Below, one piece after another: positions 32,692 to 35,056 of a stretch of 50,756 bases of DNA (its first letter is position 1; every line of letters begins with the position of its first letter). Where the stretch lies: positions 1-50,756 of the forward strand of contig CALPMC020000009.1 of NCBI GenBank assembly GCA_943324565.2. The letters are read 5' to 3'. A program made the position numbers and the translations under genes. Source of the stretch: Chitinophaga pinensis (GTDB taxonomy: Bacteria; Bacteroidota; Bacteroidia; Flavobacteriales_D; Crocinitomicaceae). The notes under the pieces were generated by a model that saw nothing but the letters and a program-made list of their open reading frames with translations, had not been told where the DNA came from and ran no database searches.

Positions 32692-32913
32692 TTAATATTC
32701 GTCTTCGTTGAAGAGGAAATCCTCTCTTGACGGATAATCAGGCCAAATTTCTTCAATGCTTTCATACATGTCTCCTTCGTCTTCCAAATCTTGTAAGTTT
32801 TCAACAACTTCTAATGGTGCTCCAGTTCTGATTGCGAAATCGATTAATTCCTCTTTTGTTGCTGGCCAAGGTGCGTCCTCTAAATACGATGCTAATTCTA
32901 ATGTCCAATACAT
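32692..32913 (-). CDS. DUF2795 domain protein
   Basis: The 73-residue acidic protein begins MYWTLELASYLEDAPWPATKEELIDFA and fits DUF2795, a small domain of unknown function found in many Bacteroidota. It is cytosolic by sequence, with a strongly negative C-terminal half (Asp/Glu-rich). It has its own well-matched promoter and a terminator, so it is an independent, probably well-expressed gene. No partner is apparent. The promoter and the length argue that it is real although short. Confidence 0.9.
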   Translation of the reverse strand: MYWTLELASYLEDAPWPATKEELIDFAIRTGAPLEVVENLQDLEDEGDMYESIEEIWPDYPSREDFLFNEDEY

Positions 32914-33058: not shown

Positions 33059-33610
33059 TTAATCCATTCTTGGATGCCAAGCTTGTTCCACTGCTCCTAA
33101 ATCGTTGGAGATTTTACGGCCTAAAACAAACATGTAGTCACTCAATCGATTCATATAGGATAAAACCAAAGGAGCAACAAACTCTTTTTCATTTAATTCC
33201 ACAATAATTCGCTCTGCTCTGCGACAAACACAGCGCGAAACGTGACAAAAGGAAACAGCTTGATGCCCACCTGGAAGAACGAAAAAGCGCATATCGGGCA
33301 ATTGCTGGTCCATTTCATCCATCCAATTTTCGAGAACTTCAATATCACCTTCTTTCAAATCCGGAATTTTCATATTCGATTTTTCAGGGTCAGAAGCCAA
33401 ACTTGAACCAATTGTAAACAGTCGATCTTGAATTTCAATGAGTTGTGTTTTGTATTTTGCATCAATTTCTTGATCGCGAACTAAGCCTAAAAATGAATTT
33501 AATTCATCAACTGTTCCATACGCATCAATTCGAATAGTATTTTTAGGAACACGTGTTCCACCAATTAATCCAGTTTTACCTGAATCACCTTTTTTAGTAT
33601 ATATTTTCAT
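33059..33610 (-). CDS. ATP:cob(I)alamin adenosyltransferase, PduO type
   Basis: The enzyme transfers the adenosyl group of ATP to cob(I)alamin, making adenosylcobalamin. The 183-residue protein starts with the PduO P-loop-like motif T-K-K-G-D-S-G-K-T-G-L, then AYGTVDELNS, and carries the CRRAER motif of the helical core. The gene starts directly after the ispH stop codon with no gap, so the two are likely cotranscribed. The link between isoprenoid synthesis and cobalamin is not obvious. No cobalamin riboswitch is seen upstream. Confidence 0.93.
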   Translation of the reverse strand: MKIYTKKGDSGKTGLIGGTRVPKNTIRIDAYGTVDELNSFLGLVRDQEIDAKYKTQLIEIQDRLFTIGSSLASDPEKSNMKIPDLKEGDIEVLENWMDEMDQQLPDMRFFVLPGGHQAVSFCHVSRCVCRRAERIIVELNEKEFVAPLVLSYMNRLSDYMFVLGRKISNDLGAVEQAWHPRMD

Positions 33611-34828
33611 TTATATTTGATTTAATAATTCAGCAGAATCAAGTGAAGGATCGATTATAGAAATAATTTTATGAAGCACTCCATCAACTAATGCGTCAGG
33701 ACAAGATGCTCCAGATGAAATAATGATTCTAACATTTTCTTTTTCTGGAATAAAACTAGTTTGACCTATAATTTTACTTGAATGAATATCAAAGGAATTA
33801 ATTGTTGATTTTGAAAGAATTTCTCCTTGGTTCTTAATATAAAAAGTTGGAAATTTTTCTTCCAATAGCTCAACTAAGTGACTGGTGTTAGAACTATTAT
33901 ATCCACCAACAACAACGGCTAAATCTGCCTCAGTCTCTAATAATCCATAAGTTGCCGATTGATTGTCATTTGTGGCATAACACAATGTATCTCTAGTATC
34001 AGCGATATGTGATTTTATGTTTACTTCACCATACTTTTGAAGCATAATATTACGCATGTAGTCAGCGATTTCTTGTGTTTCAGTAGCAAGCATCGTTGTT
34101 TGGTTCACCACACCAATTTTTGATAAATGAAGTGTGGGATCGAATTCTGGACTCATTTTTCCTTCAAAAAAAGTTAGGAAATCTTTTGTTGATTTGGAAC
34201 CCAAAATAACTTCTCCAAGGAATTTTGCTTCTTTTAAATCCTTAATAACTAATGCAGCAGAATTGCTAGAGCTATGTGAAAAAGTTGCTCTTGTTTCCTC
34301 ATGTTTTGCTTTTCCATGAATGATAATCGTATGTTTGGTTTCCCCTAGTTTTTCTGATCGGTTCCAAACTTTTTCTACAAATGGACAAGTAGTATTGTAG
34401 GAATCTATATTTACACCAATTTCACGTAGTCTTTTTTCGATTTCAAGGGTTGTTCCAAAAGCGGGAATTATTACAATATCTTCAGTAGTTAAAGTTTCAA
34501 AAGGAATTAACTGGTTTCCTTCTGTATCTTGTAAAAACTGAAGTCCATAGGATTGTAAATCTATGTTAACATCTGGATTGTGAATCATTTGACTCAATAA
34601 AAAGATGCGTTTTTCGGGATTTTCTTGTATTGCTCTGTAGCTTTTTTCAATAGCATTTTCTACACCGTAGCAGAAACCAAAGTGGCGTGGAATCAAAAAA
34701 GTAACCTTACCAAAAGAAATTTCAGTTGGAGTGAAGTCTTTTTTGCGCGGATCTTCTAATCTACGTTTCGTTTTAACCTTACTAATTATAGGTGATCGAT
34801 AAAATTCAGGAACTTCGAATTGCTTCAT
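33611..34828 (-). CDS. ispH: 4-hydroxy-3-methylbut-2-enyl diphosphate reductase
   Basis: IspH makes isopentenyl and dimethylallyl diphosphate, the last step of the MEP pathway, using a 4Fe-4S cluster. The 405-residue protein is longer than E. coli IspH, as in other Bacteroidota, because of an N-terminal extension of about 40 residues. Cluster cysteines are Cys53 in GFCYGVENAI, Cys148 in TTCPFVEKVW and Cys283 in TLCYATNDNQ. His83 lies in MIHNP. It lies 54 nt downstream of a small 57-residue gene and directly upstream of the adenosyltransferase gene. Confidence 0.95.
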   Translation of the reverse strand: MKQFEVPEFYRSPIISKVKTKRRLEDPRKKDFTPTEISFGKVTFLIPRHFGFCYGVENAIEKSYRAIQENPEKRIFLLSQMIHNPDVNIDLQSYGLQFLQDTEGNQLIPFETLTTEDIVIIPAFGTTLEIEKRLREIGVNIDSYNTTCPFVEKVWNRSEKLGETKHTIIIHGKAKHEETRATFSHSSSNSAALVIKDLKEAKFLGEVILGSKSTKDFLTFFEGKMSPEFDPTLHLSKIGVVNQTTMLATETQEIADYMRNIMLQKYGEVNIKSHIADTRDTLCYATNDNQSATYGLLETEADLAVVVGGYNSSNTSHLVELLEEKFPTFYIKNQGEILSKSTINSFDIHSSKIIGQTSFIPEKENVRIIISSGASCPDALVDGVLHKIISIIDPSLDSAELLNQI

Positions 34829-34882
34829 TATTTTATTTTAAACAACGCAAAAATGCACTGCTTGTTCGGAAAAAATTAAAAT

Positions 34883-35056
34883 TTAAGAGCCACAACCAAC
34901 ACAATCAATGTATGTGTCCATCGGTTTAACTCCGTTTAATTTCATTTCAAGGTTGTGAATTTGGTCTTTTAAGTCCATATCCGCAAATAAATCACCGGTT
35001 AATTGTGCTTTTAACTCATTGATTTCTTCTTGAAGTGTTTGTGATTCTGTAGTCAT
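34883..35056 (-). CDS. Small 57-residue protein ending CVGCGS
   Basis: ATG at 35056 opens a 57-residue frame: MTTESQTLQEEINELKAQL, then LFADMDLKDQIHNLEMK and a C-terminal DCVGCGS directly before the stop. The body is a short helix, probably a coiled coil, and the tail has two cysteines three residues apart. I recall similar small Bacteroidota proteins with this ending but no assigned function. A role as a thiol or metal-binding adaptor is only a guess. It is 54 nt upstream of ispH on the same strand, so cotranscription with the Fe-S enzyme is likely. Confidence 0.72.
   Translation of the reverse strand: MTTESQTLQEEINELKAQLTGDLFADMDLKDQIHNLEMKLNGVKPMDTYIDCVGCGS

Follow-up and report, generated by a model that had tools for sequence, protein, structure and literature searches.

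A 57-residue protein of Bacteroidota and of viral contigs, probably a redox tail detached from class I ribonucleotide reductase

The stretch of DNA analysed here (the window) is 50,756 nt long and carries a short open reading frame 54 nt upstream of ispH (gap 34829-34882). The frame codes for 57 residues and ends with CVGCGS, which raises the question of whether it is a gene at all and, if so, which partner the terminal pair of cysteines serves. A preliminary description had noted a complete small frame with a coiled-coil-like body, and had guessed at a metal site, an Fe-S precursor linked to IspH, or a thiol switch. The frame indeed runs from an ATG through 57 codons to a TAA (35056..34883), and its distance from ispH, which starts at 34828 on the same strand, is as described; that both are on the minus strand had been left unsaid. 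The features to which we refer are the following.

34883..35056, minus strand: small protein of 57 aa, the proposed stand-alone ribonucleotide reductase (RNR) redox tail (ATG 35056-35054, TAA 34885-34883)
35006..35050, minus strand: predicted helix 1 of a hairpin, residues 3-17 (AlphaFold2, block pLDDT 74 for residues 1-10 and 93 for 11-20)
34934..34990, minus strand: predicted helix 2, residues 23-41 (AlphaFold2, block pLDDT 92 and 89)
34886..34933, minus strand: predicted disordered C-terminal arm, residues 42-57 (GVKPMDTYIDCVGCGS; AlphaFold2, block pLDDT 59 and 50)
34886..34903, minus strand: putative redox motif C52-V-G-C55-G-S57-COOH (C52 codon 34903-34901, C55 codon 34894-34892)
33611..34828, minus strand: ispH/lytB (PRK13371-type match), a neighbour only, the link not being conserved

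The gene is present as a single copy in the genome of the window, and the plus-strand reading of 34883-35056 is broken by stops. Compared with its closest relative (locus L031), it shows 8 synonymous and 5 non-synonymous differences (pN/pS 0.15). The ratio is 0.15-0.34 against all 19 relatives, most pairs being near synonymous saturation, and has a median of 0.26 and a maximum of 0.67 across 189 pairs. The substitution pattern indicates that the frame is real and under purifying selection. Selection and homologues with a conserved tail, both of which the preliminary description had named as support for its proposal, were thus found, the latter in genomes of the window's family and at 19 named loci. 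A chance reading frame, which the shortness of the gene and the lack of a credible match of the window protein to Pfam and NCBIfam might have suggested, is already refuted by these ratios and by the conservation, and we give it practically no weight.

An AlphaFold2 model built on 82 sequences predicts a two-helix hairpin followed by a disordered arm; the body is thus helical, as had been supposed from its coiled-coil-like sequence, while the C-terminus is not. A similar hairpin and arm are predicted for a type-2 member, and Foldseek returned no PDB fold match at E <= 0.001. Reading of the relatives revealed two subtypes with one common anatomy. Type 1 follows the pattern ...LTGD[LM]FxDM[DE]xKDxIHNLEMKxxGVKPxDSxx[DE]C[VI]GCGS and type 2 the pattern ...LTGNLFEDGExQQxIYELKKQLNPEIExxPExDDxDDxCLxCGS. 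The residues D26, M27, D31, I33, H34, N35, L36, and M38 of helix 2 are invariant in 19 type-1 rows, and L19, G21, D26, I33, C52, and C55 are invariant over 82 diverse rows comprising both types. The window protein is acidic (11 D+E vs. 4 K+R). In all of 179 rows (160 viral and 19 named host sequences), the C-x-x-C is followed by exactly two residues before the C-terminus, and these are GS in 173, GA in 3, SG in 2, and SS in 1.

A scan of 20 non-viral members against family libraries gave no credible match (best E-values 0.0012 for Pfam, 0.0089 for NCBIfam, and 0.0069 or weaker for PHROGs). By these searches, the protein belongs to an overlooked, uncatalogued family of proteins of about 57 residues. 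Matches to designed PPR repeat proteins among the PDB sequences (best 6een_D, E 2.9e-6) arose through a repeated ten-residue stretch, no stretch passing alone, and we take them to be an artefact of repeats; the other PDB sequence searches gave weak matches only. The idea that the protein might be the Bacteroidota ribosomal protein bL38 led nowhere.

Relatives at about 60% identity or more occur in 48 of 150 genomes of the window's family (the window's own counted), and more distant ones (roughly 31-46% identity) in other genomes of that family. With a joint profile of both types, the gene was detected in 100 of the 245 genomes from the order, in 34 of 78 from another family of the class (f8), and in eight of 392 drawn across the phylum, one of the eight being a weak match in a long frame. 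The carriers at the 19 named genome loci are titled Crocinitomicaceae, Flavobacteriales, Salibacter, and similar, with a few doubtful names. A cultured relative, Salibacter halophilus (L048), is among the organisms with the gene. Chitinophaga pinensis and Polynucleobacter meluiroseus are the titles of MAGs in which window-like genes were seen, and these names are doubtful for the contigs concerned (L031, L033, L035).

If the protein were a metal or Fe-S helper for IspH, a conserved linkage to ispH would be expected of such an operon partner. The two genes are adjacent, on the same strand and 54 nt apart in the window, and they are adjacent in close relatives. However, ispH lies beside the gene at only five of the 19 named loci and, with the window's own counted, three of 30 genome loci of three kb, two genomes being in both sets; at the other 14 and 27 loci, some with short flanks, no ispH adjoins. 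The adjacency is confined to close relatives, and thus the IspH idea does not carry. Viral contigs also carry the small protein, and we consider a role in helping IspH very improbable. The guess of a metal site or Fe-S precursor is likewise not supported, ispH being a neighbour in close relatives only and viral homologues numbering in the hundreds; the guess of a thiol switch came closer, as a redox-active dithiol is the most likely nature of the CxxC. The host neighbourhoods of the gene showed no conserved partner. In the window, ispH is followed by a gene for a PduO-type cobalamin adenosyltransferase (33059-34828 for the two), and a DUF2795 gene is located nearby (32692-32913).

A different partner is indicated by the end of the protein itself. 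The terminal C-x-x-C-G-S with its acidic lead (DDDECLSCGS in type 2) resembles the redox tail of the large subunit of class I RNR (NrdA), in which a C-x-x-C is likewise found at the flexible extreme end. The genome of the window codes for one PF02867 protein, an NrdA encoded on contig C27 (the small-protein gene is on contig C9), which ends with ...ACSLDDPDGCEMCSG. The solved chain closest to this NrdA is 3hnc_A (792 residues), presumably human RRM1, which reads ...CSLENRDECLMCG before its last residue. The motif is thus shared with both NrdA and 3hnc_A, but the NrdA of the window's genome keeps a tail of its own (GCEMCSG). The plain proposal that a missing NrdA tail is the reason for the small protein's existence therefore fails for this genome; the form that survived is a tail acting in trans, which is sometimes the only tail.

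The distribution of the gene points to the same enzyme. Matches to a profile of the last 110 residues of NrdA were obtained in 227 of the 245 genomes of the order and 73 of the 78 f8 genomes. Among these 300 genomes with an NrdA C-terminus, 134 carry the small protein, compared to none of the 23 without one (p 2.8e-6, kinship ignored). Within genus g7, the corresponding figures are three of four and none of six. The sequence evidence thus indicates RNR, and not IspH, as the partner.

The ends of NrdA were surveyed in two steps. In the first, the end of the best NrdA was read in 30 further genomes, of which 18 have the gene and 12 lack it, and two ends had no cysteine at all, namely those of G052 (gene present) and G013 (gene absent). 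For G132, whose NrdA continues beyond its contig, the profile located the end elsewhere. In the second step, based on the 110-residue profile, we read 40 C-terminal regions (39 genomes), 36 of them selected for low coverage or score, including a second match in G147, and four as ordinary examples; for most of the 300 genomes, the presence of a tail rests on HMM coverage to the end. Many low scorers merely had a long linker and an ordinary tail. NrdA proteins without a tail were found in ten genomes: G052, G550, G038, and G147 (one genus of f1), G601, G602, and G603 (f65), G673 (f8), G576, and G013. No lost tail was visible in any of the three frames within about 330-400 nt past their stop codons. 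In G147, the profile match ran past the stop codon, and the sequence beyond holds no CxxC; a second, distant NrdA-like protein beside this tail-less NrdA (L357) ends with SGCLACEG and thus has its own CxxC.

Eight of the ten (those of f1, f65, and f8) retain Cys217, Cys443, Cys428, Asn426, Glu430, and Tyr736/737 in the numbering of the window genome's NrdA; we take Cys217 and Cys443 to be the redox pair and Cys428 the radical cysteine of class I RNR. All eight genomes, from three families, carry the small protein, which was confirmed by reading the sequence for G052, G038, and G673 and by a full-length profile match for the rest. In G052, the one among the eight in which a second class I/II RNR was sought with the whole-family model, the tail-less NrdA is the sole PF02867 match at E <= 1e-20.

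The small protein was not detected in G576 and G013, in whose NrdA-like proteins (L395, 1617-3959, and L394, 16695-19016, both on the minus strand) Gly or Ser stands in place of Cys217 and the tyrosine pair is not intact. That of G013 has also lost Cys428, and a second RNR-like protein, whose end is Cys-rich, is encoded in this genome; at a completeness of about 90%, G576 may be missing another NrdA. Judged by their residues, both proteins are degenerate and do not look functional, and they possibly have another role. Every catalytically intact tail-less NrdA that we saw is thus accompanied by the small protein.

Intact tail-less NrdAs occur in eight of the 134 genomes with the small protein, compared to none of the 166 without it (Fisher 0.0014, kinship ignored); when the two degenerate proteins are included, the counts are eight of 134 and two of 166 (Fisher 0.024, kinship ignored). 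The 166 include G626, in which the contig stops before the end of NrdA. The tail losses with an intact active site fall into three families and represent perhaps three or four independent events. Because the gene is nearly universal in genera g19 (21 of 23 genomes) and g210 (3 of 3), its overlap with tail loss there is partly expected. In the remaining 126 carriers among the 134, to which the genome of the window belongs, NrdA was counted (mostly from HMM coverage) as still tailed, so that in most cases the gene is no replacement for a tail.

Two f8 genomes connect the small protein and the enzyme from the opposite side. In G718 and G730, an intact NrdA ends with ...ASDFECVGCGS and ...NSDFECVGCGS, respectively, and not with CSLDNPDxCEMC.., while a separate small-protein gene was not detected at E <= 0.001. 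G718 is 89% complete, so that such a gene might have been missed there; G730 is 98% complete. The last ten residues of 99 type-1 small proteins agree with this NrdA end at nine positions in 7 cases, eight in 4, seven in 51, six in 32, and five in 5, compared to two to four positions for four ordinary NrdA tails. Ends of this kind are thus found both on the enzyme and, as in the window, on the product of a separate gene.

Viral copies are numerous. A type-1 profile found 324 viral relatives and a mixed profile at least 219, and the best 80 of each were kept; a tblastn search of cultured phage records found nothing at E <= 1. The cellular hosts of the family are Bacteroidota, and thus the viruses that carry it probably infect Bacteroidota. 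Within eight frames of the gene, ThyX is encoded at 28 of the 80 type-2 viral loci (L201-L280), MazG at 39, and a sigma-70 region 2 protein at 37. ThyX and MazG are each absent from the 80 type-1 loci, where virion and packaging genes are often around: a portal-like protein at 19 (a match below the Pfam cut-off), an M15 peptidase at 19, and a terminase-like protein, assigned by eye, at 29. These neighbourhoods give a hint, and no partner. That phages bring their own tail-less NrdA found no support. PF02867 (class I/II large subunit) was found in none of 42 carrier records, some of which may be fragments (two plasmid records and 40 of the 160 viral loci, for the most part on the longer contigs), and of six viral NrdA loci, the five for which a C-terminus was located have CxxC ends of their own.

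Since some bacteria have lost the tail of NrdA but kept the small protein, the latter probably provides this tail as an individual component. Our preferred reading, which we consider likely, is that of a C-terminal redox tail that has become detached from class I RNR and acts in trans. The helical hairpin would dock on the NrdA dimer, and the flexible arm would bring the CxxC dithiol into the active site, where it would reduce the disulfide left by each turnover; the dithiol would then regain its electrons from thioredoxin or glutaredoxin. In a few lineages, NrdA without its own tail would depend on the small protein, although other reductants could serve such enzymes, while in most hosts, including that of the window, it would add to the tail that NrdA already has. 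Viruses would use it on the enzyme of the host, as suggested by the 42 records in which no RNR was found, and would thereby raise the dNTP supply during infection. As to whether the protein is a mobile third component of class I RNR, with phages of Bacteroidota carrying a stand-alone tail instead of a whole RNR and the NrdA of some hosts having lost its own, we see the chances as evenly balanced.

Alternatively, the protein might be a regulator or inhibitor of RNR, its hairpin binding NrdA and its end, as a mimic, filling the groove of NrdA's own tail. Yeast Sml1 reportedly competes in this way with the C-terminus of Rnr1; the Sml1 family, which we take to be small RNR inhibitors thought to act at the NrdA C-terminus, lacks this CxxC end. 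The shared tail motif and the co-occurrence with NrdA fit a regulator as well, and the tailed NrdA kept by most hosts is a possible target of a competing mimic. A regulator, however, leaves unexplained the invariance of both cysteines and the eight intact tail-less NrdAs, which were found only together with the small protein, and phages would presumably gain little by inhibiting dNTP synthesis. We regard this alternative as unlikely.

Equally unlikely, in our view, is an independent thiol-redox or zinc protein with another target, in which case the RNR-like end would be convergent and the tail losses coincidental. A C-x-x-C flanked by small residues is widespread as a redox and metal motif, the gene modules around the viral copies are varied, and independent tail losses are few. 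This is opposed by the exact spacing of two residues to the C-terminus, by the co-occurrence with NrdA, and by the FECVGCGS end on the NrdA of G718 and G730.

A detached tail has counterparts among known systems, none of which it matches fully. The CX2C tail of NrdA, RRM1, and Rnr1 shares with the small protein the flexible arm, the C-x-x-C, and the two small residues at the C-terminus, but is part of the NrdA polypeptide, whereas the small protein is a separate polypeptide of 57 aa with its own predicted helical hairpin. Thioredoxin, glutaredoxin, and NrdH are CxxC reductants acting on RNR, as proposed here for the small protein, which differs from them in that neither model has a thioredoxin fold and its CxxC is at the extreme C-terminus.

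The closest likeness is to the split class II RNR of Pseudomonas aeruginosa (NrdJa and NrdJb), in which, according to PMC4520616, NrdJb is the thiol-disulfide exchange chain. As portrayed there, NrdJb is a separately encoded thiol-exchange chain for a catalytic chain without that function, a dependence that would also apply to the tail-less NrdAs here. NrdJb, however, serves class II, whereas these NrdAs align throughout the catalytic marks with the NrdA of the window's genome, to which the class I chain 3hnc_A is nearest. Compared to NrdJb, the small protein is not beside nrdA where both were located, occurs mostly in genomes with a tailed NrdA, is common in viral contigs, and consists of 57 aa with a predicted hairpin and disordered arm and no credible Pfam domain. 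It resembles NrdJb in kind but is not a member, since partner class, domains, and gene linkage differ. According to PMC5704485, a class II subunit can act with its C-terminus on the active site of a different subunit, and TCEP works through the C-terminal cysteines while DTT can reach the active site; in PMC6382339, the CX2C motif is described as indispensable for regeneration.

The dithiol at the C-terminus of NrdA is regarded as integral to class I RNR, and among CC-licensed papers we found no description of a stand-alone tail. Should the tail be separable and transferable, the turnover of RNR would be open to regulation, exchange, and hijacking independently of the enzyme. For phages, this would be a very cheap route to higher dNTP synthesis, and an overlooked family of about 57 residues in uncultivated viruses would gain a testable function. 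The natural tail-less NrdAs would then be material for studying tail reduction in trans.

The two plasmid records that carry the small protein are filed under unrelated bacteria, Escherichia fergusonii (L119, NZ_CP040811.1) and Lysinibacillus pakistanensis (L120, CP045836.1). Their compared stretches are 99.8% identical over 12,170 aligned bases, and one of the records is annotated with a terminase. Both thus apparently represent one phage genome, perhaps of a Bacteroidota host, that was filed as a plasmid.
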